From: a virus
IMG/VR virus record: IMGVR_UViG_3300014838_000085
Coordinates: 1-22,877 of that record
DNA length: 22,877 bases
Reading direction: 5' to 3' (one strand)
Positions 4,752-18,019 of the stretch are shown in pieces. Made by a program: the position numbers and the translations under genes. How positions within the stretch are numbered: position 1 is the stretch's first letter; each line of letters begins with the position of its first letter. The notes beneath the pieces are model-generated. The model had not been told where the DNA came from. It was given only the letters and a program-made list of their open reading frames with translations, and did not search any database.

Positions 4752-5224
4752 AAGCAATAGTTGCTTTTGCGATCATTAGTTTACTACTGGCAATTCCACT
4801 GTCACACCGATCTGCAAAGCCACTCATCCATTTGTCTTTCAAACCTGTTGCTAGTAAGGGTATTATTAAAAAAGTACCTGTAATTTCAACGCCACTTTCT
4901 ACCCCTGTCGTAAAAACACCCACTCCTGTTGTCTCAACGCCACCTCAAATTGTGCTGGCAAGCTTTACTTGTGACAGTTATGCTAGTTATTTTGAGCAAT
5001 ATAGTTGGAATGTAAACACAGCTATTGCTATCTGCCAAGCTGAAAGTTCCGGTAATCCAAATGCAATAAGCCCAACTTCAGATTTTGGCTTAATGCAACT
5101 TCATGACATTGATATACTCAATCCGGCAGAGAATATAGCCTATGCTTACTATCACAAATACCTAACTCAAGGCTGGCAAGCTTGGACTACATATAATGAT
5201 GGTGCTTATGCTGCCTATTTATAG
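4742..5224 (+). CDS. Exported lytic transglycosylase (SLT/lysozyme-like)
   Basis: This 160-aa protein should cleave peptidoglycan glycan strands, either for host lysis or for wall entry. Residues 4-20 form a signal anchor (Ala-Ile-Val-Ala-Phe-Ala then Leu-Leu-Leu). Residues 44-70 are a Pro/Thr/Ser/Val-rich linker with repeated STP/TPVV elements. Residues 77-160 form the lysozyme-like domain: an ICQAESSGNPNAIS block with Glu101 as the likely catalytic acid, the SDFGLMQL motif at 113-120, and a final W-x-x-W-type end (Gln-Ala-Trp-Thr-Thr-Tyr). The domain is compact (about 85 aa) compared with Slt70-type domains (about 120 aa), as in many small phage and gut-virome lysins. An intrinsic terminator follows immediately. 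Confidence 0.85.
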   Translation: MKYKAIVAFAIISLLLAIPLSHRSAKPLIHLSFKPVASKGIIKKVPVISTPLSTPVVKTPTPVVSTPPQIVLASFTCDSYASYFEQYSWNVNTAIAICQAESSGNPNAISPTSDFGLMQLHDIDILNPAENIAYAYYHKYLTQGWQAWTTYNDGAYAAYL

Positions 5225-5324: not shown

Positions 5325-5519
5325 ATGATGACTGACAAAAATGGAATAGCACCTTATTTATTAACTCCTGATGACCTAAAATACAAAGCACCTAAAAAAG
5401 TAATTACAATGAAGTTTTTAGAAAAGCAAGAAAAAAAGCTTGATAAAGCTGTTAATCACTATCGCTTTAATCCATTCAAAGAATACTTTAATTATCTAGT
5501 GCAGGTCATACTGGCATGA
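5325..5519 (+). CDS. Hypothetical protein, 64 aa, first gene of the late operon
   Basis: The 64-aa protein has a basic, Lys-rich middle (residues 24-43) and a more hydrophobic end. No family is recognised. AGAGGG lies about five bases before the first of two adjacent ATG codons (5325 and 5328), and either may be used. It is the first gene after promoter P5262, with a leader of about 28 bases. Its stop overlaps the start of the first glycosyltransferase gene (ATGA). Confidence 0.6.
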   Translation: MMTDKNGIAPYLLTPDDLKYKAPKKVITMKFLEKQEKKLDKAVNHYRFNPFKEYFNYLVQVILA

Positions 5520-6460
5520 AGATATGCTTTTTGGGTAACTTTCAGGTGGATTTTTCTAGTGAGAGCCATCATGCTAAAACGCTAGAAAGCATGGGTCATA
5601 CAGTCATGAGGCTGCAAGAGGGTACTGTCACATCTGAAGTTGTACTTGAATGGGCTTTGACTGCTGATCTATTTGTTTGGGTGCATACTCATGGCTGGAA
5701 TACTGCCGGCACAATGTCAATGGTTGATATATTAGACAACCTAAAAAACAACAACATACCTACAATGACTTATCATCTTGATCTATGGTTTGGTATCAAC
5801 AGGCAAAAAGATTTAGACAATGACCCATTTTATAAACACATAGGGCATTTCTTTACTGTAGATAGATTGATGGCTGAATGGTTTAATGAAAATACCGAAG
5901 TCAAAGGTCACTATTTAAGAGCTGGTGTGTTTGATGATGAATGTTACACAATAGAGCCCAACCAAGAGCCACTGAATGATGTTATATTTGTAGGCTCAAG
6001 AGGTTATCATCCTGAGTGGCAATGGAGACCACAGCTTGTAGATTGGCTGGCTGAAACTTATGGTGAGCGATTTAAGCATTATGGTGGTGATGGCATTAAG
6101 ATTGTCAGAGGAAGTGAGCTCAACCAGCTGTATGCCAATACTAAAGTAGTTGTTGGTGATAGCCTATGTCTTAATTTTGACTACCCTGATTACTGGTCAG
6201 ACCGAGTTTATGAAACAATTGGAAGAGGTGGATTTCTACTCATGCCACAAATAAAAGGTCTTGAGACAGAGTTTGATTATCAGACTGAATTAGCAACATT
6301 CAGGTTTGGTGATTTTCAAGGTCTTAAAAAGAACATAGATTTATATATTAACAATAACCTACTCAGAGAAACTATTAAGAAAAATGGCTTTAATAGAGTG
6401 AAGCATAATTATACTTATTCTCACAGGTGGCAAACTATATTTCAGGAGTTAGGCTTATGA
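5516..6460 (+). CDS. Glycosyltransferase, CgeB-like GT-B fold
   Basis: This 314-aa protein is probably a nucleotide-sugar glycosyltransferase of the GT-B type. The N-terminal half begins with a Rossmann strand and loop (MKICFLGNF) and has an acceptor-side region with ADLFVWVHTHGW around residue 50. The C-terminal half has VIFVGSRGY near residue 160 and the donor-binding region RVYETIGRGGFLLMP near residue 232, which resembles the E-x-x-(G/A)-x-G-x-x-x-L element of the CgeB/spore-maturation glycosyltransferases (Glyco_trans_1_2). There is no signal peptide, so it acts in the cytoplasm. It is coupled to its neighbours by ATGA overlaps on both sides. Sugar and acceptor are unknown. Confidence 0.75.
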   Translation: MKICFLGNFQVDFSSESHHAKTLESMGHTVMRLQEGTVTSEVVLEWALTADLFVWVHTHGWNTAGTMSMVDILDNLKNNNIPTMTYHLDLWFGINRQKDLDNDPFYKHIGHFFTVDRLMAEWFNENTEVKGHYLRAGVFDDECYTIEPNQEPLNDVIFVGSRGYHPEWQWRPQLVDWLAETYGERFKHYGGDGIKIVRGSELNQLYANTKVVVGDSLCLNFDYPDYWSDRVYETIGRGGFLLMPQIKGLETEFDYQTELATFRFGDFQGLKKNIDLYINNNLLRETIKKNGFNRVKHNYTYSHRWQTIFQELGL

Positions 6461-7002
6461 CATTAGAAGAAATTGGCAGAATACATGGTACTGATAAAGT
6501 TGAGCATGGCTATTTACCACATTATGAGCAGCATTTACCGGACTGTGATAGCCAATTCACACTATTAGAGATCGGTATTGCAACCGGTGCTTCATTAAGA
6601 ATGTGGCATGATTGGGCTATAAATGCTCAGATAGTTGGTATAGACAATAACCCTGATGTCAAAGACATACCAGAAGAGGGCTTTAAGATTATTCATGGTG
6701 ACGCTACAGAGCAGTTTGAAATGCCATACACTTCTTTTGATGTAATTATAGATGATGGCTCACACCAATCAACCGATATAATAAAAAGCTTTGATTTACT
6801 ATGGTCAAAACTAAAAATTGGTGGCTGGTATATTATTGAAGACCTTGAGACCCAATTTCATGAAGAATGGGGGGGCTCTTACTCAGGCTCACCGGCAACA
6901 ACAAAGATTTATACTGAATTACTTAACACAATACAGAATAGATACAATTCTGAGCTTCATGTCTATGAGCAAATGGTGTTCATTAGAAAGGGCAAAAAAT
7001 GA
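6457..7002 (+). CDS. SAM-dependent methyltransferase, macrocin-O-methyltransferase-like
   Basis: This 181-aa class I methyltransferase opens with Ile-His-Gly-Thr-Asp-Lys (residues 9-14), typical of the macrocin/mycinamicin sugar O-methyltransferase group. The SAM-binding motif I is LLEIGIATGASLRMW (36-50), the acidic residue after strand 2 is Asp63 in GIDNN, and DVIIDDGSHQ (95-104) is the family's metal/acceptor motif. WYIIEDL follows at 124-130. It probably methylates a sugar hydroxyl made by the neighbouring enzymes. I chose the ATG at 6457 because it overlaps the preceding TGA. A run of seven G at 6869-6875 (codons 138-140) is exceptional in this DNA and could be a phase-variation tract. 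Confidence 0.8.
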   Translation: MTLEEIGRIHGTDKVEHGYLPHYEQHLPDCDSQFTLLEIGIATGASLRMWHDWAINAQIVGIDNNPDVKDIPEEGFKIIHGDATEQFEMPYTSFDVIIDDGSHQSTDIIKSFDLLWSKLKIGGWYIIEDLETQFHEEWGGSYSGSPATTKIYTELLNTIQNRYNSELHVYEQMVFIRKGKK

Positions 7003-7646
7003 AATATGTAATTGTCTTGCCTAGCATTTTTAAGCCATATACTGATGATTGCATTGCAAGTATGTCTGACGCTCTTAAGCAGAATGTCTTACTAATTGAT
7101 AACACTCAAAACAATATTGGAGTTACACCAGCTTGGAACTTAGGTATTGATAAGCTATATGAAGATAATGCTGACTGGCTAATCTTACTAAGTGCAGCAA
7201 TTAGATTTACAAATGGTGGTGATGATTTTATTGCAGAGCTTGAAAAACGTGCTGCCACTGATGATGTTGTTGAAGCAAACAATGTCTTTGGCTGGCATTT
7301 GATAGCTTTTAATAGACGCTTATTTGATAAGGTTGGTAGATTTGATGAAAACTTACCGATATATTTCAGTGATCTTGACTGGTCATTAAGAATACAGAAA
7401 GCTTATAACCAAGAAAATGCTGTTTGGGATAAGGTTGAGCTTGGAGTTACAGATATGGGTATGGCTCATGGTGTTAAGTTTGCTGGCGTTGTTGAGCCGG
7501 CTGACCCAAAGATAATGTACTTTGTTACAAAATGGGGCAGACATCCTAGTGCATGGAAACTTGGCAGTTATGACACACCATTTGATGACCCTGCAAATGA
7601 TATTAAGTTCTTCCCACATGTTAATTTTATAGGGGGCAATTTATGA
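6999..7646 (+). CDS. Family 2-like glycosyltransferase (GT-A fold)
   Basis: This 215-aa protein has the order of a GT2 enzyme. It starts with a short N-terminal strand (KYVIVLPSIF) and has LLIDNTQNNIGVTPAWNLGI near residues 30-50, the usual 'N.G...A.N.G' donor site. The segment ADWLILLSAAIRF near residue 60 stands where GT2 enzymes have Asp-x-Asp; here it lacks the second acid. FNRRLFDKVGRFDENLPIYFSDLDWSLR follows near residues 104-131, matching the late 'DE.F..Y..D.D.' block. The missing DxD could mean unusual metal use or reduced activity. Both ends overlap neighbours as ATGA. Confidence 0.75.
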   Translation: MKYVIVLPSIFKPYTDDCIASMSDALKQNVLLIDNTQNNIGVTPAWNLGIDKLYEDNADWLILLSAAIRFTNGGDDFIAELEKRAATDDVVEANNVFGWHLIAFNRRLFDKVGRFDENLPIYFSDLDWSLRIQKAYNQENAVWDKVELGVTDMGMAHGVKFAGVVEPADPKIMYFVTKWGRHPSAWKLGSYDTPFDDPANDIKFFPHVNFIGGNL

Positions 7647-8443
7647 AAGAGACAGTCTTATTAACCGGTGCAAAAGGTTTTGTTGGCTCAAATGTTTGGG
7701 AGTATTTAAGCGAAAAATCAGACTATAATCTTGTTTGTCCTGATGGTCATATCACTGAAGATATGGGTGGCAAGTTTGATTATATTGTTAATTTTGCATC
7801 CAATTCAAGTGTTGAGCAATCTATACAAGACCCTCAAGCAGTTATAGATAATAATGTCTCTCTCATGACATCACTTCTTGAAATAGCTAGGCTAAACCCA
7901 CCGAAGTTATTTGTGCAATTCTCAACTGTTGAGACACAAGAAATTACCAATCCTTATGCTGCTAGTAAGAAAGCTCAGGAAGATATTGCTCTAGCTTATA
8001 GCCGGACTTATGGCTTGCCGGTTGTTGTTATTCATTCAACTAACTTGATTGGCAAAGGTCAAGGACAAGATAAGTTTATACCTAAAGTCATTAAGCAAAT
8101 AAAAGCCGGTGAGCCGGTAACTATCTATACTGTTAATGGCGAGTTTGGCAAAAGAAAATATAACAATGTCAAGAATGTTGGTGCAGCAATTTTATATCTA
8201 CTGCAAAACCATGAATACTATCAGAGTTATCATGAGCTAGGTGTTTATGGTGGTAATGAAGTGAACAATTTACAGATGGCTCAAGCTATTGCAAAACTAC
8301 TTGGCAAGAAACTATCTTGTGAGTTCATAGAAGCTGACACCATCAGACCTAATTACTTGATGAGCTATAATTCTGACCAAGATAATGTGCCAACTACTTT
8401 AGTGGCAGCAACATTAGAAGATGGATTGAGAGAGCTATTATGA
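7643..8443 (+). CDS. NAD(P)-dependent sugar epimerase/dehydratase (extended SDR)
   Basis: This 266-aa protein is an extended short-chain dehydrogenase of the GalE/RmlB type, acting on nucleotide sugars. The cofactor motif GAKGFVG is at residues 9-15. A Ser-Thr pair at 94-95 (FSTVE) and Tyr105/Lys109 in YAASK form the catalytic triad region. The later NLIGKGQGQDKFIPKVIKQI segment is the usual substrate-binding helix. It is shorter than typical members (310-340 aa), with a reduced N-terminal part between strands 2 and 4. It probably supplies an unusual sugar donor for the adjacent glycosyltransferases. Which reaction it runs cannot be told from sequence alone. Confidence 0.85.
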   Translation: MKETVLLTGAKGFVGSNVWEYLSEKSDYNLVCPDGHITEDMGGKFDYIVNFASNSSVEQSIQDPQAVIDNNVSLMTSLLEIARLNPPKLFVQFSTVETQEITNPYAASKKAQEDIALAYSRTYGLPVVVIHSTNLIGKGQGQDKFIPKVIKQIKAGEPVTIYTVNGEFGKRKYNNVKNVGAAILYLLQNHEYYQSYHELGVYGGNEVNNLQMAQAIAKLLGKKLSCEFIEADTIRPNYLMSYNSDQDNVPTTLVAATLEDGLRELL

Positions 8444-10134
8444 TACATGTTGTATGGCTGCCACCAGATAATCAGTGGGATGAGTACACTTTTGAGCTGT
8501 TATTCAATAATAAAATGTGGCTACCAAATGGTAGTTATGAGTTCAAGCACCACAAAGATTTCTCTGAGCTACCAAAAGAAGCTGAGGGCATTATTCTGGT
8601 TGTGCCCCAAAAATACTATGTTGATAAAGTTGATTGGCTTAATGACAAGATAAAGCATTACAAATATGTACTCTATGTTGGTAGTGGTAATGAAGAGGCT
8701 GAGTTCCCAATTGAGAAAATAAAACACCCTAATATGGTTGTTTACTACACCACACCTCACATGAAACGAACAAAGTTCAAGGCTATTGACCGGCTGTTTG
8801 GTGATGGCTATGCACCACAATCAGAATGTATTGTTGATTATGCTCAGCTTGCTCAAGATAAGCCAATAGATGTTTATTTTGGTGGTCAAGTCACCCATGA
8901 AAGACGAGAGCAAGCCATGAAAGCCCTCAAGCACATTGATACAGAAACTAAAGTTAAGGTTGAGTATCTTGAAAGCAAAGGCTTCACTCAGGGCTATGAC
9001 GATTACCATACTTACTATGAGAAAATGGCTAGTGCTAAAATTGTTCCTTGTCCATCCGGTCCAAACACACCTGACACTTTCAGAAACTATGAAGCACTTG
9101 AAGCTATGGCATTACCAATACTAGACACTAAGACAATTTATGACAGTGTACCTGATTATTGGTCTAAGTTGTTTGGTGCTGAGCCACCAGTACCGATTAT
9201 TAAAGATGATTGGGAGAGCTTAAATGGCTATTGTCAGGGCATACTTGAAGATTGGCATACTTATATCAACAGAGCTGTATCATGGTGGATTGGCAAAAAG
9301 AAACAATATGCTTATGATCTGGTAGCTGACCTTGACAAATTAACCGGTTACAAAAAAGAATTAACTGCACAAGAGAAAATTACAGTGATTGTGCTCACTA
9401 GCCCAATACCATCAAATCCTGACACCAGAAAAATTGATGAGTGTATTGCAAGCATAAGAACTGTATTGCCGGAAGCTGAAATACTAATCGGTGTTGATGG
9501 AGTTAGAGAAGAGCAGCTTGACCGGAAGCCTGATTATCAGGAGTTTACCAAAAGATTACTTTGGAATTGTTTGCATGTATGGACAAACGTATTACCGGTT
9601 GTCTTTGAAGAGCACATGCACCAAGCTATGATGACCAAGAAATTACTTACAATGGTCAAAACACCAACCATTCTATTTGTTGAGCATGATATGGTTATAA
9701 CCTCTAAATCTACTGAGACCCAATACCCACCTTATGAATGGGGTGAATTAGTAGATATTATTGAAGAGGGCACAGCTAACATAATCCGATTTCACTTTGA
9801 GGCAGTATTCCCTGTTGAACATTTGCCACTAATGCTTGGTGAGCGTGAGTATATTCATGGCATACCTATGATTAAAACAATCCAATACTCTCAAAGACCA
9901 TTTTTAGCCAACACAGCTTTTTACAAAGATATTATTGACCGGTACTTTACTGATGAAAGCCGGACATTTATTGAAGACGTTGTACATGGCAAACCAATTA
10001 GTGCCTATCAAGACAATGGTATTGTTGGCTGGAACTTGTGGAAGATATGGATTTATGCACCTGAGGGTGATATGAAGCGATCTGAGACCATTGATGGTAG
10101 AGAAGATGACCCTAAGTATGAAATGAGGTTTTAA
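8440..10134 (+). CDS. Two-domain glycosyltransferase-like protein, 564 aa
   Basis: Two parts can be seen. Residues 1 to about 310 resemble a GT-B/CgeB-like transferase: Rossmann-like strands, VYFGGQVTHERREQAM near residue 147, then ASAKIVPCPSGPNTPDTFRNYEALEAM near 196-222, the usual donor site. From about residue 312 a second domain starts with EKITVIVLTSPIPSNPDTRKID, typical of a GT2 start, and has EILIGVDGV and FVEHDMVI (near 412-418) as the acidic metal site. The protein may add two sugars in succession. It is the largest enzyme of the block and overlaps the epimerase gene as ATGA. The second domain is the less sure assignment. Confidence 0.7.
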   Translation: MIHVVWLPPDNQWDEYTFELLFNNKMWLPNGSYEFKHHKDFSELPKEAEGIILVVPQKYYVDKVDWLNDKIKHYKYVLYVGSGNEEAEFPIEKIKHPNMVVYYTTPHMKRTKFKAIDRLFGDGYAPQSECIVDYAQLAQDKPIDVYFGGQVTHERREQAMKALKHIDTETKVKVEYLESKGFTQGYDDYHTYYEKMASAKIVPCPSGPNTPDTFRNYEALEAMALPILDTKTIYDSVPDYWSKLFGAEPPVPIIKDDWESLNGYCQGILEDWHTYINRAVSWWIGKKKQYAYDLVADLDKLTGYKKELTAQEKITVIVLTSPIPSNPDTRKIDECIASIRTVLPEAEILIGVDGVREEQLDRKPDYQEFTKRLLWNCLHVWTNVLPVVFEEHMHQAMMTKKLLTMVKTPTILFVEHDMVITSKSTETQYPPYEWGELVDIIEEGTANIIRFHFEAVFPVEHLPLMLGEREYIHGIPMIKTIQYSQRPFLANTAFYKDIIDRYFTDESRTFIEDVVHGKPISAYQDNGIVGWNLWKIWIYAPEGDMKRSETIDGREDDPKYEMRF

Positions 10135-10302
10135 GTGAGCACACCTAGTCATAACTACATAACCAAAGTAATAAATGTCATTCAAGAGTGTCCTAGTGAA
10201 ACAGGTATGGAGTTTACCTTTTTTATTGATAGTTTAGATACTGAATTGCCTATCATGGATGACCCAAAGTTATTAAGCAAGCTAAAGGAGTTATTGAAAT
10301 GA
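10135..10302 (+). CDS. Hypothetical protein, 55 aa, GTG start
   Basis: This gene begins with GTG directly after the TAA of the preceding gene. A GAGG ribosome binding site lies about seven bases upstream, and the stop overlaps the next ATG (ATGA). It fills an otherwise empty 164-base gap exactly, in the pattern of its neighbours, which is the main evidence that it is real. The product is acidic, with a Phe-Thr-Phe-Phe-Ile core and a helical C-terminus (Lys-Leu-Leu-Ser-Lys-Leu-Lys). No family is recognised. Confidence 0.6.
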   Translation: MSTPSHNYITKVINVIQECPSETGMEFTFFIDSLDTELPIMDDPKLLSKLKELLK

Positions 10303-10655
10303 AAGTTACTCAAAAACAATTCCTATTATTCCAAAACTACTGCAAAGCTTATCAGCAAGAGTTTGGGCTTAACCACTGGACCTTATATTTCAGGCTTAAA
10401 AAAATACATTCTTATGCAAACAATAACACTGACGATCAATATGTAGCCACTATCACGCTGGCAGATGAATATGATAAAAGCGATATTGATATTGCTGGTG
10501 GCATTAACTTACATCTTATGCAGACTGCCAAACATGAAATGTTGCATGTAATTATTGGCAAGCTATACTTTTTGGGCTGGAAGCGAGACACAAGTAGCAA
10601 AGAATTATTATCAGCCAATGAAGAGGCAGTTAGTTTGTTGGAGAAAATTATATGA
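10299..10655 (+). CDS. Zinc metallopeptidase-like protein (HExxH)
   Basis: The 118-aa protein carries HEMLH at residues 79-83 within a KHEMLHVIIGKL helix and two adjacent Glu residues at 108-109 (Asn-Glu-Glu-Ala), the usual position of the third zinc ligand in gluzincin-like folds. The N-terminal half has strands and a Trp (Asn-His-Trp-Thr-Leu-Tyr). Small HExxH proteins of this size are frequent in phages and often annotated as putative metallopeptidases or SprT-like. The active-site residues are present, so hydrolase activity is possible. Its place inside the sugar-modification operon is unusual. Starts and stops are coupled by ATGA on both sides. Confidence 0.65.
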   Translation: MKVTQKQFLLFQNYCKAYQQEFGLNHWTLYFRLKKIHSYANNNTDDQYVATITLADEYDKSDIDIAGGINLHLMQTAKHEMLHVIIGKLYFLGWKRDTSSKELLSANEEAVSLLEKII

Positions 10656-10867
10656 AAATAGAAATATCTAAAGCTAAGGCATTTGAAATAGACCCTACCA
10701 AGAATTATCTTGTTAGCTTTGAAAGTGAAGTTGCTATGTCAAGAGAAGAAGCAGTAAAAATTAAAGAAAAATTAATAGAAGTATTTACAGAAATTGGGGC
10801 AAAGGTCCATGTCGCTATACTTGTTAAGGGCAAAATTGTAATAACAGAGGTGAGAGATAAAAAATGA
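10652..10867 (+). CDS. Hypothetical protein, 71 aa
   Basis: The 71-aa product has a beta-alpha-beta pattern: a strand (Tyr-Leu-Val-Ser-Phe), a helix (Ser-Arg-Glu-Glu-Ala to Phe-Thr-Glu, about residues 30-47) and two strands (Val-His-Val-Ala-Ile-Leu-Val and Lys-Ile-Val-Ile-Thr). That would form a small ferredoxin-like unit. No signature motif is present, so no role can be named. ATG and stop overlap the neighbours by four bases each. Confidence 0.6.
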   Translation: MKIEISKAKAFEIDPTKNYLVSFESEVAMSREEAVKIKEKLIEVFTEIGAKVHVAILVKGKIVITEVRDKK

Positions 10868-11100
10868 AATTAACATTTGATATACACAATAAACCTGTTA
10901 TAGAAAGCCCATTGGGTAAAATGACTTATGAGGAGTTACTAGATAACCTTATATTAAAATCTGGTAAAGCTAAGAATAAGGTACAGGCTGAAGCCGGACT
11001 ACAACACCCACAGCTATATAAAGACATTAGTTTATTGTCTGTATTAAAATCTTTAGAAGTTTTAGGTTATGAAATAATTATCAGAAAGGCTACTCCATGA
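10864..11100 (+). CDS. Small XRE-like helix-turn-helix protein
   Basis: In this 78-aa protein, residues 22-70 match a short Cro/XRE helix-turn-helix pattern. They run from a LLDNLILKSGK helix, through a recognition region KNKVQAEAGLQHPQLYKDI, to a closing LLSVLKSLEVLGYEIII helix and strand, the usual ISLLSLLKILEALGYEL-type ending of this family. The first 20 residues are a beta hairpin. It might regulate the operon it lies in. Translation is coupled at both ends (ATGA). Confidence 0.6.
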   Translation: MKLTFDIHNKPVIESPLGKMTYEELLDNLILKSGKAKNKVQAEAGLQHPQLYKDISLLSVLKSLEVLGYEIIIRKATP

Positions 11101-12167
11101 AATTAGGATTATGGGGTGCTAGAATGGACAACTCCGGTCTTGGTATGCAGACTTGGGAGTTTTACAACCACATGAAACCAGACAAAACATTTGTGGTAGA
11201 TATTTCAATGATTGAGCCCAATCCTGAGAGACGCTTAAAACAATACCCTGAGCGATACCCTGAACTCCGAGAGATCATTCAAGGCTTCCCAAATGAAAGT
11301 GATATGAGAAACTTCTTAACCGGCTTGGATGTTGTCTTCATAGCCGAGAGTGCCTACAACATGGACTTTTATAGAATTGCTAGAGATATGGGTGTCAAAA
11401 CAGCAGTTCAATACAATTATGAGTTTTTTGATTGGTATGATGGCTCAATTTATGCCAACAATCCACCGGACATGTTTATTGCACCTAGTAGCTGGCATTA
11501 TGCTGAAGTTGATGAGTTTTGTAAGAAGAAAGAAATTGCTCATGTTTATTTGCATTGTCCAGTAAACCGAGACAAGATTAAGCTAAGACATATTGATAGT
11601 GCTTTGACATTTGTTCACATTGCCGGCAGACCTGCAAGCCATGACAGAAATGGTACTTATACTTTTCTCAATGCCCTGCAATTAGCTGAGGGCGATCTAA
11701 GAGGCATTGTTTATACTCAAGACAAAACGTTAGAGAGTGAAATCCACCAAGAATACCCAAGTGTTGATGTCCGGTACAATGTAGTTGATTACACAGACAT
11801 TTACAAAAAAGGCTCAGTTTTAGTTTTGCCTAGAAAATATGGTGGCAACTGCTTGCCTATGAATGAAGCTCTTGCAGCCGGTATGCCGGTCATCATGACA
11901 AAGATACCACCTAACAGTGATTTTCTACCTGGTGAGTGGCTTGTTGGGGCTGTAGAGACAGATATTGAGTTTGCACCAAGATTTAAGTTACCGGTTTATG
12001 AAGCTGACCCTGCTGCACTTATGCTTAAAATGAGGTGGTTTAAGTCACTAAGTAATTCAGACATGTTATATCAGAGCCATATTGCTGACAGTCTAGCTGA
12101 CAAAATTAGCTGGCAAACCATGAAACCTAATTATGAGAAAGTTTTAGAGGCATTATGTCAAATATAA
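11097..12167 (+). CDS. GT4-like glycosyltransferase (GT-B fold)
   Basis: This 356-aa protein begins MKLGLWGARMDNSGLGMQT, the N-terminal 'G.G' loop of GT4-type transferases. Other landmarks are YNYEFFDWYDG near residue 115, APSSWHYAEVDEF near residue 132 (usual 'S.W..' acceptor-side helix), VHIAGRPASHDRNG near 175, and the donor-binding region RKYGGNCLPMNEALAAGMPVIM near 246-267, which contains the family's E-x7-E-type element in reduced form (Asn-Glu-Ala-Leu-Ala-Ala-Gly). It should transfer a hexose-type unit from a nucleotide sugar in the cytoplasm. Its 3' end overlaps the next gene by 13 bases. Confidence 0.8.
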   Translation: MKLGLWGARMDNSGLGMQTWEFYNHMKPDKTFVVDISMIEPNPERRLKQYPERYPELREIIQGFPNESDMRNFLTGLDVVFIAESAYNMDFYRIARDMGVKTAVQYNYEFFDWYDGSIYANNPPDMFIAPSSWHYAEVDEFCKKKEIAHVYLHCPVNRDKIKLRHIDSALTFVHIAGRPASHDRNGTYTFLNALQLAEGDLRGIVYTQDKTLESEIHQEYPSVDVRYNVVDYTDIYKKGSVLVLPRKYGGNCLPMNEALAAGMPVIMTKIPPNSDFLPGEWLVGAVETDIEFAPRFKLPVYEADPAALMLKMRWFKSLSNSDMLYQSHIADSLADKISWQTMKPNYEKVLEALCQI

Positions 12168-12544
12168 AAACTAGAAAAAATCAAAGAGAGTTTGTAACAG
12201 CTTTTCTTGAGGTTTACTGTGAGAATGGTACTTTGAGCGATCTATGCAAAAAACTAGATGATAGTGTGGCAAATGTCTCTCATAGAATAAGCAGACTTAG
12301 AAGAGCTGGTGTCAATTTACCCAAGCTTTATAAATTAGGTGATATTGATGTTGATGAGCTTAATAAGTTAATAGAAACCAAGCTCAGGGCAGCCTCTAAG
12401 CTAACACCAGAGCAAAGACCAATAGTAGTTACCAAACCTGATAAACCAATCACCCCAAAAGACAATGATGGTGTTTGGAGACCTAAACCGATAGTACCCA
12501 ATTCACCTGATTATGGAAAGGCAACCCACAATGCCAACAGTTAG
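12155..12544 (+). CDS. Helix-turn-helix protein with Pro-rich tail
   Basis: In this 129-aa protein, residues 9-50 form a winged-helix-like unit: FVTAFLEVY helix, GTLSDLCKKLDDSVANVSHRISRLRRAGVNLPKL with the turn around Asp-Asp-Ser-Val. It resembles a widespread phage HTH type that reads '...LG.S...V..RI..LR..GV.LP'. The remainder (about 85-129) is Pro/Lys-rich and probably unstructured. It lies shortly before the terminase genes, where such proteins may help DNA recognition or regulation. An AGAGG ribosome binding site precedes the ATG, which overlaps the previous gene. Confidence 0.65.
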   Translation: MSNIKTRKNQREFVTAFLEVYCENGTLSDLCKKLDDSVANVSHRISRLRRAGVNLPKLYKLGDIDVDELNKLIETKLRAASKLTPEQRPIVVTKPDKPITPKDNDGVWRPKPIVPNSPDYGKATHNANS

Positions 12545-12698
12545 ACAAATGTATAACAAACTTATAGAGCTTGAAAAGCTTGATAAGTCAGAGGGTGCAT
12601 ACCCAATTATGTTTAATTCAGCTTGGGCTCAAATAGAGTTTATTCTATATTGTCGCTGGCGAAAGTTTTTGAAGAGGCTGAAGATATGGAAATCTTAA
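12531..12698 (+). CDS. Hypothetical protein, 55 aa
   Basis: The ORF begins at an ATG with GGAAAGG about ten bases upstream and overlaps the preceding stop. The first 40 residues read as a helix (Val-Arg-Gln-Met-Tyr-Asn-Lys-Leu) and a strand (Tyr-Pro-Ile-Met-Phe). The last 15 are unusually basic and aromatic (Trp-Arg-Lys-Phe-Leu-Lys-Arg-Leu). The overlapping frame in that last part reads more like normal protein, so a small frameshift may have altered the original C-terminus. No function is recognised. Confidence 0.5.
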   Translation: MPTVRQMYNKLIELEKLDKSEGAYPIMFNSAWAQIEFILYCRWRKFLKRLKIWKS

Positions 12699-12820
12699 AT
12701 CTATATGCCGGTATTGGTGACAAGCGTACTCTATTAAATAATTGTGTTGAGCCTGAACTTGGTTTGCACATATTAAATGCTGCACTCAATCCCATTAAGT
12801 TACAAGGAGAGTTATTGTAA
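12686..12820 (+). CDS. 44-aa ORF resembling the N-terminus of a DNA methyltransferase
   Basis: The product starts Met-Glu-Ile-Leu-Asn-Leu-Tyr-Ala-Gly-Ile-Gly, close to motif I at the start of phage DNA (cytosine/adenine) methyltransferases, which read 'ILNLYAGIGGN'. After about 16 residues the match is lost and the protein ends at residue 44, so no catalytic motif remains. It could be a truncated remnant or a chance likeness. An AGAGG ribosome binding site lies nine bases before the ATG. The stop overlaps the next ATG as TAATG, suggesting it is still translated. Confidence 0.45.
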   Translation: MEILNLYAGIGDKRTLLNNCVEPELGLHILNAALNPIKLQGELL

Positions 12821-13638
12821 TGCCCCCAATCACTGTCTTTTGCCCTTTCACTAGACCTGAGAATGTCAGACGCTTCTTTGATGATCTAGCCTCAACTGAC
12901 TTAAAAGCAGAGAATACAAACCTAGCTTTAATTATTGACATTGGTGAAAATAAAGATACCGGTGAGCAAGATGGCATAAAAATCTACACTCGCATTATGG
13001 AAGAAATGAATAGAACAAAATATCGCAAGTTTATAATCATTAAAAATTATGAGCACCATGTAAACCCAATTAACATCCCAATCAGAAGAGAGCGAATTGC
13101 AGAAATCCACAATCAGAGCAAAGACATTATTTCAGCACTTGATGGTGAATATGTTTTAGGCTTGGAAGATGACACTATTTTTACCAACCTTTGTGTTCAG
13201 CGATTACTAGAGCCATTTAATAGCTTTGCCACTCTTGATAAGCCAATAGGTTTGGTAAGTGCTTACGCTGCCGGCAGATGGCATAACAAGATCATTGGAA
13301 TATGGAACTTTGACAATATAGATAATCCTACTGAGTGCTGGACTGAATTGCCAAGTAAGGGTTATCAGGAATGTGACGCTACTGGCTTTTATTGTTATCT
13401 CACACCAAAAGAGCTTTATATCAAACACAATTACAATACAGATGTTATTGAGCCTTACGGACCGGATGTAAATTATGGCTTATGGTTAAGACGAGAGGGA
13501 TTTGTAAACATTGTTGATTGGTCACAGCCCTGTGGTCATAAAGATGGTGATATAATAATTACCCCAAATGATAATTTATATGTTGAGCACTTTTATAAAG
13601 CAAAAGAGCCGGCATGGATTAGGACAACCAACAAATGA
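12820..13638 (+). CDS. Family 2-like glycosyltransferase with EDD motif
   Basis: This 272-aa protein starts with a strand ITVFCPFTRPENV, then ALIIDIG near residue 36. Residues 88-110 (IPIRRERIAEIHNQSKDII) correspond to the donor-binding helix of GT2 enzymes. GLEDDT at 114-119 is a clear acidic metal-binding motif (Asp117/Asp118). Later, GLVSAYAAGRW and DATGFYCYL match the usual acceptor strands, and DVNYGLWLRREG stands where GT2 enzymes have the late 'ED' catalytic block. It is the last sugar-related gene before the packaging genes. An AAGGAG ribosome binding site lies about ten bases before the ATG. Confidence 0.75.
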   Translation: MPPITVFCPFTRPENVRRFFDDLASTDLKAENTNLALIIDIGENKDTGEQDGIKIYTRIMEEMNRTKYRKFIIIKNYEHHVNPINIPIRRERIAEIHNQSKDIISALDGEYVLGLEDDTIFTNLCVQRLLEPFNSFATLDKPIGLVSAYAAGRWHNKIIGIWNFDNIDNPTECWTELPSKGYQECDATGFYCYLTPKELYIKHNYNTDVIEPYGPDVNYGLWLRREGFVNIVDWSQPCGHKDGDIIITPNDNLYVEHFYKAKEPAWIRTTNK

Positions 13639-15823: not shown

Positions 15824-18019
15824 ATGGCACTCAAAATAGGACAAATCGTAAAATTAGCAGTTGCAAAAAGACTTTTTGGTTATGGTCCGAGTGACGATTA
15901 TTCTTATGTAGATCAATTTCAAGGTCCGATAAAAGACATTGCATTACTTGGCATGTATTCTGGTGTTGCATATCGCTGTATTAACACTTTGGCTGAAGCA
16001 GTAGCCGGTCAATATATTCCTTACCCATACACATTAAGTGCACAAGGTAAGCAAGTAGTAGTTAATAATCATCCATTTTGGGATGTATTAAATAACCCAA
16101 ATCCTGATTTGACTTTTTATCAGCTATTTGAGGGCTCTGCAAGCTTTGTTGAGCAGTTTGGTGAGTTCTTTTGGTACATGGTTGGTGGCTCAATTACTGG
16201 CTTTAAGGGTGGAGTAAAACAAATCTATCTGCTTAGACCTGACAAAATGGGTATTGTTTTAGACAAACAAACCGGTGAAGTCATGGGCTACAACTACAAT
16301 GTTGGTGGTGGCAAGCGAATACCTTTTACTGTTGAAGAAATCAAACACTTCATGACATTCAACCCTAAAAACCCTTATCGTGGTTATTCAACTGTTGAAG
16401 CAGCAGTAGATTATATTCAAACAGAAGAAGAAGTATCAAGATTTACTAGAAATTATTTCAGAAACAATGCAGCAATGTCAGGCATTTTATCTATTGATGG
16501 CAAACTAACTAGAGAAAATTGGAACAAGTTTGTTAGACAATGGCGTGAGCGTTATCAGGGTGTGGCAAATGCCGGCAAAGTAGCTTTGGTTAGAAATAGT
16601 CAGGTTACATTTACACCGGTTAGTTCAAGCATTGGTGATATGAACTTGACCGATCTAAAACAGACCACAGTTGATCAGATACTTATGATGTTCCGAATAC
16701 CAAAAGGTTTGTTTGGCATGGAAAGTGATCAAGGACTTGGTAGAGCTTCTGTTGAAACATTAGAATATATATTTGCCAAGTGGACTGTTGATAACAAATT
16801 AGACAGACTTGATGATTTTATTGAAAGCTGTTTACAGGATTATTACCCCAAGCAAGTTAATCAAGTTTCTCACAGAAATATCATACCTGAGGACAAAGTT
16901 TACTTACTAGATTACTATAATCAAGGTGTTGATAGGTGGGTTACAAGGCAAGAAATCCGAGACAAAGACCCTGATCTTGCAAATACTTTAATTGATGGTG
17001 CTCAACAACTGTTTACTACTATTCAGCAAATACCACTTATTGACCCTGAAGAGCAAGCCAAAAAAGACCAAGCAGCAGCAGAGGCAGCTCAAACTTTAGC
17101 AGAAACTCAAGCTCAAAAGCCAAAAGATGACCCTGACAATGATAACGATAATGACAGCAATTCTGAAGACGATAATGATGATGACAGTGACAAATCTTTG
17201 AAGATTAGGCTTGTGAAGTCAAAAAAAAAAGTAGTTAAATCACTTAACTACTCAACTGCTCAAAAAGAAGCTCAGAGATTAACAATTGAGAGAAATGCTA
17301 CTGCTTATGCTAGAAAATATAAGCAAGCTTTTAATTCTGTATTATCTGTTCAGAAACAAACTGTACTTGGTAACATCCAACATCTTGCCGGCAAAGCACT
17401 TGCAGACACATTGCTCAACATGAGTGATGAAGACGCTAATTTTAGTGCTGCTTTATTGCCGGTATTAACTGCACTTACACTAGAACAAGGACAGCTTGCT
17501 ATTGAGTTTTCAGGTGCAACCGATAGTACATATCAAGTTAGTCAATCATTGAAAGCTGCTATTACAGCCTCAACCAAGAAAATGAGCCAAAACTTTGACG
17601 CTGAAACAGTTGATCAATTAAATGCTACTTTAAGTGAGGGTGTAACTGCCGGTGAAAGCATAAGTGACTTATCTGCTAGAGTGTCACAAGTTTATGATAC
17701 TGCTCAAGGCTACCGATCAGACACAGTTGCTAGAACTGAGGCTCAATCTGCAAGCAATGGTGCAACACTTGACGCTTATCAACAAAATCCGGTTGTAATT
17801 GCTATGACTTGGTTTGCAAACCCTGACGCTTGTGAATACTGTGCAGACTTAGATGGTACGACAGTTGGTCTTGAAGACAGCTTTGTTGCTCAAGGTGACA
17901 GCGTGGATGTCACTCAAGATGATGGCTCTACAGACAGTTATCAAGCAGATTATGGTGATGTGGACACTCCACCTTTGCACCCAAATTGTAGTTGTACTAT
18001 AATACCAGAGACAGAATAA
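15824..18019 (+). CDS. Portal protein fused to a Mu gpF/SPP1 gp7-like minor head protein
   Basis: This 731-aa ORF has two parts. Residues about 1-405 form an HK97-type portal: GVAYRCINTLAEAVAG near 48, the FWYMVGG strand near 113, YLLRPDKMGIV near 131 and DQILMMFRIPKGLFG near 286. Residues 430-470 are an Asp/Asn/Ser-rich acidic linker followed by Lys-Ser-Lys-Lys-Lys. Residues 475-731 form a MuF-type domain, with ARTEAQSASNGA near 634 and a zinc-like set Cys670, Cys673, Cys722 and Cys724 (HPNCSC). Portals form the 12-subunit DNA channel; MuF-like proteins are minor head components. The junction is a run of ten A plus a hairpin (17221-17251). No start codon is present at the beginning of the MuF part, so it needs the portal start. 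Confidence 0.88.
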   Translation: MALKIGQIVKLAVAKRLFGYGPSDDYSYVDQFQGPIKDIALLGMYSGVAYRCINTLAEAVAGQYIPYPYTLSAQGKQVVVNNHPFWDVLNNPNPDLTFYQLFEGSASFVEQFGEFFWYMVGGSITGFKGGVKQIYLLRPDKMGIVLDKQTGEVMGYNYNVGGGKRIPFTVEEIKHFMTFNPKNPYRGYSTVEAAVDYIQTEEEVSRFTRNYFRNNAAMSGILSIDGKLTRENWNKFVRQWRERYQGVANAGKVALVRNSQVTFTPVSSSIGDMNLTDLKQTTVDQILMMFRIPKGLFGMESDQGLGRASVETLEYIFAKWTVDNKLDRLDDFIESCLQDYYPKQVNQVSHRNIIPEDKVYLLDYYNQGVDRWVTRQEIRDKDPDLANTLIDGAQQLFTTIQQIPLIDPEEQAKKDQAAAEAAQTLAETQAQKPKDDPDNDNDNDSNSEDDNDDDSDKSLKIRLVKSKKKVVKSLNYSTAQKEAQRLTIERNATAYARKYKQAFNSVLSVQKQTVLGNIQHLAGKALADTLLNMSDEDANFSAALLPVLTALTLEQGQLAIEFSGATDSTYQVSQSLKAAITASTKKMSQNFDAETVDQLNATLSEGVTAGESISDLSARVSQVYDTAQGYRSDTVARTEAQSASNGATLDAYQQNPVVIAMTWFANPDACEYCADLDGTTVGLEDSFVAQGDSVDVTQDDGSTDSYQADYGDVDTPPLHPNCSCTIIPETE
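17221..17251 (+). promoter_or_regulatory. A10 slippery run followed by perfect hairpin, probable recoding site
   Basis: Ten A (17221-17230) are followed at once by GTAGTTAA (17231-17238), a 5-base loop and TTAACTAC (17244-17251), a perfect 8-bp stem. In the reading frame used, the run encodes Lys-Lys-Lys inside the portal-MuF linker. A -1 shift gives Ser-Ser-stop; a +1 shift gives an immediate TAG. On the minus strand the same sequence looks like a hairpin followed by T10, that is, an intrinsic terminator. Confidence 0.6.

Follow-up and report, generated by a model that had tools for sequence, protein, structure and literature searches.

The stretch of DNA analyzed here (the window) is a viral contig of 22.9 kb (22,877 nucleotides), in which a single long ORF encodes a phage portal protein fused to a MuF domain. 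The features of this locus, together with those of the domain junction discussed below, are as follows:

13909, upstream of the fusion ORF: packaging gene GP3_package
14342, upstream of the fusion ORF: ORF of 487 codons with no match in Pfam
15824-18019, plus strand: portal-MuF fusion ORF of 731 codons, also present as a fused homologue in 34 other lineages
15965-16966, plus strand: HK97-type portal domain, residues 48-381 (Pfam PF04860 Phage_portal, E 4.7e-45)
17108-17242, plus strand: linker between portal and MuF, residues 429-473, of low confidence in the AF2 model
17221-17230, plus strand: A10 tract, putative slippage site; the junction carries A9-A11 in 15 other lineages too
17230-17252, unstranded: perfect hairpin of 9 bp with a 5-nt loop, found in this phage only and probably incidental
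17232-17234, plus strand: TAG stop reached after loss of one A (K-K-K-TAG), giving a portal-only product of 469 aa
17236-17238, plus strand: TAA stop met when one A is added or the ribosome shifts by -1 (K-K-K-S-S-TAA), giving a portal-only product of 471 aa
17615-18004, plus strand: MuF domain, residues 598-727 (Pfam PF04233 Phage_Mu_F), with a conserved PPLHPNC motif
18625, downstream of the fusion ORF: prohead protease gene
19415, downstream of the fusion ORF: capsid gene

From its position, the 487-codon ORF is assumed to encode the large terminase. Elsewhere on the contig, positions 5516-13638 hold an island of sugar-related genes (glycosyltransferases, a methyltransferase, and a GDP-mannose-dehydratase-like epimerase), and the contig start (1-166) is a tandem repeat in which GTCAGCAGA units are abundant and several frames are open.

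Both halves of the fusion could be assigned to known families. The N-terminal part scores above the gathering score of the PF04860 profile and has the fold of an HK97-type portal, with PDB profile matches to GTA and HK97-type portals (E 2e-26) and a Foldseek match (E 4e-15). The C-terminal part exceeds the gathering score of PF04233 and carries the C-terminal HPNC motif of MuF, or SPP1 gp7-like, proteins. In an AF2 model of the fusion built on 18 sequences, residues 429-473 were of low confidence and presumably form a disordered linker, and the next helix begins at residue 478, which places the A10 tract at the C-terminal end of the linker. Both the length and the sequence of this linker differ between relatives.

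An initial sequence-only reading of the window had pointed to a homopolymer at the portal/MuF junction as its longest, and this was confirmed: the A10 tract, read TCA AAA AAA AAA GTA, is followed in length by three A7 runs and one G7 run. Since 40 of 100 dinucleotide shuffles of the AT-rich window also contain an A10, such a run is not rare by chance and the window by itself proves little; what goes beyond chance is that relatives have kept the tract, not the A10 as such. The same reading had correctly noted that both alternative frames stop at once after the tract. It had further held that the MuF part has no start codon of its own near its beginning, which is nearly right, as the in-frame GTG (17213) and TTG (17198) located just 5' of the tract are accompanied by no convincing Shine-Dalgarno sequence.

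Occurrence of the tract among relatives

Alignments of portal, MuF, and terminase, as well as single relatives, served as queries in scans that yielded 35 portal-MuF lineages, the related genes coming from environmental viral contigs. A9 or A10 was found at the portal/MuF junction in 15 of these 35 lineages, and one further partial relative (L007) carries A11; a tract of at least 9 A is thus present at the junction of 16 lineages, counting the window. The closest relatives (L101, L102, and L103) have an in-frame A10 within linkers of very different length and sequence, and A9 occurs in L106, L107, L158, L113/L183, L114/L178, L188, L190, L194, L196, L202, and L203. Four records from four different metagenomes (L158-L161) have identical portal-MuF genes, all with A9. 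In L007, which lies on the same contig as L005, the A11 occupies positions 479-489, the portal frame ends in KKKSSKRPTVQH followed by a stop, and MuF lies in another frame; this record comes from a single metagenome assembly and may reflect a true reciprocal state, phase variation, or an error of assembly.

Conversely, L023, L104, L105, L166, L108-L112, L115-L121, L179-L182, L185, L186, L191, L195, L198, L200, and L201 showed no A9 tract. About half of the fusion-encoding lineages therefore do without it, indicating that the tract is not obligatory, that any switch is lineage specific, and that the design can work without a portal-only protein. The sequence-only reading had asked whether both the A run and the adjacent hairpin persist in homologous ORFs, and had counted relatives fused without them as evidence against a switch: the A run does persist across variable linkers, the hairpin does not, and the contrary evidence is in part present, in that tract-less half. 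On the tree, tract-bearing lineages occur in all major clades, mixed among tract-less ones, so the tract is either old and has been lost several times or has been gained repeatedly.

Beyond these contigs, one scan of prokaryote genomes was empty and a second gave distant MuF genes only, with no close prophage, and matches among phage isolates were limited to distant portals or MuF domains. Three other observations were made among the relatives. In L108-L112, an AGGAG(C/T) near the start of MuF is spaced 7 nt from a downstream in-frame GTG, at which MuF alone might be initiated internally. In L027, a distant portal-MuF ORF is broken within the MuF domain by an in-frame TAA (YK*SG, 6180-6182). 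The near-duplicate contigs L066 and L067 contain an A10 (9128-9137 and 5020-5029, respectively) within a 158-codon ORF 3' of the portal, a possible slippage site.

Selection on the tract and products of a slip

Across 243,795 bp of portal-MuF loci, all 15 A/T runs of at least 9 lie in the linker, which makes up 5,613 nt, or 2.3%, of the DNA. In the same loci, A9 or longer runs spell 12 of 15 KKK motifs in the linker and none of 13 elsewhere (p 1.5e-5). An earlier version of the KKK test (Fisher 1.6e-12) and a codon-usage product (1e-7 to 5e-9) overstated the significance because the lineages had been selected for bearing the tract. The distribution of run lengths is likewise inverted at the junction, with 16 runs of at least 9 versus 6 of 7-8, compared to 6 versus about 215 elsewhere in the ORFs.

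The tract is moreover maintained in three different codon phases, namely, AAA AAA AAA (phase 0), CAA AAA AAA AGT (phase 1), and xxA AAA AAA AAG (phase 2), and one lineage spells it Q-K-K-S (phase 1) instead of K-K-K. Identity at fourfold-degenerate sites between tract-bearing lineages is only 25-51%, suggesting that the tract reflects more than mere inheritance. Given the three phases, the Q-K-K-S spelling, and the near saturation of synonymous sites, selection acts on the nucleotide tract and not on lysine. All of these comparisons have to be read knowing that the lineages are related, that the junction was picked after seeing the window, and that the linker is Lys-rich. As a homopolymer of at least 9 kept as nucleotides, the tract would qualify as a transcriptional slippage site in those lineages that carry it, and it is missing from about half of the family.

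In all 16 tract-bearing lineages, both shifted frames reach a stop within about 20 codons, so that any non-triplet slip yields a portal without MuF. Early stops are slightly enriched in the shifted frames (p 0.019, versus 0.31 in tract-less controls), which is minor support only since this value weakened from p 0.0035 as lineages were added, and -1 stops on their own are not enriched. As the sequence-only reading had proposed, the truncated portal of 469-471 residues would be of normal size, the stand-alone portals of relatives with a separate MuF gene (L173 and L175) having about 445 codons. The nearby stops, which in the window come after only 1-2 codons, are thus predicted to generate the alternative product that characterizes slippage sites.

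Transcriptional slippage and competing explanations

We consider it probable, with moderate confidence, that the A10 tract is a selected RNA-polymerase slippage site inside the fused gene, from which both the fusion and a portal-only protein would be made. Most transcripts would retain A10 and encode the 731-residue fusion, while some would gain or lose one A, run into a stop one or two codons later, and encode a complete portal of 469-471 residues without MuF. One gene would then supply two kinds of portal subunit to a mixed 12-subunit ring, in which some subunits carry an internal MuF domain; taking part in this ring is the function that we infer for the portal-only form, and the mixed ring may be the benefit of the arrangement. 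The portal-only/fusion slippage switch suggested by the sequence-only reading is partly supported in this form, its core having strong comparative support from the 16 lineages, the three phases, and the A11 of L007. The stoichiometry of many portals and few MuF copies that it had attached to the switch is not implied, since A9 or A10 without a slip encodes the fusion, and only very efficient slippage would make the portal-only form more than a minor product. Slippage by bacterial RNA polymerase requires about 8 or more As (PMC6260861), and poly(A) tracts longer than 7 are a recognized class of transcriptional realignment site (PMC3711429). A tract of at least 9 in each phase, together with the lack of any conserved stem or Shine-Dalgarno-like element, favors transcription as the level at which the slip would occur.

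A programmed -1 ribosomal frameshift on an in-frame A_AAA_AAA or A_AAA_AAG, whose -1 stop would give the portal-only protein in a set ratio, appears unlikely but is the main rival. An in-frame A_AAA_AAR heptamer of the X_XXY_YYZ type is present in all tract-bearing lineages, with a -1 stop reached in 1-20 codons, and also in six or seven tract-less lineages with only 6-8 As (L111, L181/L182, L191, L198, L200, and L201), so that a ribosomal or dual mechanism is conceivable. However, a run of 7 nt would suffice for the heptamer in phase 2, where tract-bearing lineages hold 9-10, and the lack of enrichment of -1 stops alone also speaks against a ribosomal shift. The strong local hairpin in the window would suit such a shift, yet the stem occurs in the window only, no upstream Shine-Dalgarno-like element was found in tract-bearing lineages, and the stem begins 0-3 nt past the heptamer, nearer than the spacing usual in -1 frameshifting.

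The hairpin itself had been described as a perfect 8-bp stem beginning on the base after the tract; the stem is indeed perfect but comprises 9 bp, since A17230 pairs with T17252. The 40-mer holding it has a folding energy of -8 kcal/mol (z -5.3), and chance alone would place about 3 perfect 8-bp hairpins in the window. A similar stem was absent from nine other tract-bearing relatives and from the wider relative set, and Rfam gave no hit. We thus rejected the hairpin as a slippage stimulator and as a part of the switch: besides being restricted to the window, it lies downstream, and an RNA polymerase positioned on the tract has yet to transcribe it, so its zero spacing is no argument for transcriptional slippage, contrary to what had been claimed. 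It is probably incidental.

Other forms of selection at the nucleotide level, either a poly(A) translational pause for domain folding or a phase-variable DNA repeat that switches the MuF fusion, seem improbable. While the tract is located at a domain boundary and the A11 record L007 would represent an "off" genome under phase variation, 15 of the 16 lineages are in frame and L158-L161 all have A9, so the length of the DNA tract looks stable. Pausing, for its part, would leave unexplained why junction runs reach at least 9 rather than 6-8.

We judge it quite improbable that no recoding takes place, in which case the protein would need a basic, Lys-rich linker and AT-rich codon usage would have produced A9-A10 by drift. 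Tract-less relatives such as L023 and L104 are also K/R-rich at the junction site, and most of these phages use AAA more often than AAG for Lys. Against such drift stand the within-locus KKK control, the conservation of the tract across phases that include Q-K-K-S, and the inverted run-length distribution; L107 and L113, furthermore, keep the tract although AAA accounts for only 47-50% of their Lys codons. Lys codon bias alone was rejected on the basis of this control, the phase variety, and these low-AAA phages. Finally, an intrinsic terminator on the minus strand, where the hairpin precedes a T10 in the geometry of a hairpin and U-tract, can be dismissed, since the stem has only 2 G-C pairs, a terminator scan did not recover the site, no credible gene lies nearby on that strand, and relatives hold the tract without the hairpin.

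Comparison with known systems and implications

The arrangement most closely recalls known cases of transcriptional slippage. In Thermus thermophilus dnaX, slippage gives tau and gamma at about 1:1 (PMC5009743). The portal-MuF gene similarly encodes the long product in one ORF, with an A-run of at least 9 and stops near in both other frames; unlike dnaX, it is a phage gene known from sequence, and the ratio of about 1:1 belongs to dnaX. In Escherichia coli dnaX, a -1 ribosomal frameshift takes place on A_AAA_AAG. The two genes share a slippery, A-rich, in-frame heptamer and, as predicted for portal-MuF, a short N-terminal product, but portal-MuF has no conserved stem or Shine-Dalgarno-like element, and its tract exceeds the heptamer in every phase. 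Slippage also operates in tssM of Citrobacter rodentium (A11) and Yersinia pseudotuberculosis, where both products and their ratio were measured, with a 20-25% shift (PMC4256274). As in tssM, a poly(A) tract would give a structural protein in a longer and a shorter version, and the DNA occurs in either state, out of frame (L007) or in frame (window), although TssM is a secretion-system membrane protein and not a virion protein.

Among phages, lambda G/GT and SPP1 17.1/17.1* are programmed ribosomal frameshifts in tail genes, with the short product as default (PMC6316719). There, as proposed for portal-MuF, one gene specifies two virion or assembly proteins that share an N-terminus, in a fixed ratio, whereas the long form (the fusion) is the default here. 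In SPP1, the portal gp6 is bound by gp7 (MuF), a protein of low copy number (PMC6316719), from which we infer that a mixed portal ring is plausible; gp6 and gp7 are encoded by two separate genes, unlike the single ORF of the window. The Streptomyces phages Chymera and mu1/6, which are distant relatives, each have one annotated "portal" ORF with portal and MuF domains.

In agreement with the sequence-only reading, which knew of no described case, a literature search among open-licence PMC papers turned up no portal-MuF gene with a reported slippage site; in one paper on a Campylobacter phage, the gene proposed to undergo slippage is a broken methyltransferase gene rather than one for a virion protein. 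Frameshift finders that seek out-of-frame ORFs would miss the site because its DNA frame is intact. The slippage mechanism is already known from dnaX and tssM, and the portal-MuF gene would be a new setting for it.

Portal rings are usually regarded as twelve identical subunits. We propose tentatively, the matter being almost evenly balanced, that in a widespread lineage of environmental tailed phages programmed transcriptional slippage on A9-A11 sets the proportion of portal-ring subunits that are portal-only versus fused to MuF. If this is true, the mixed rings of some phages would owe their MuF content to RNA polymerase and not to gene dosage or ribosomal frameshifting, and RNA-polymerase slippage would program the composition of a DNA-phage head.
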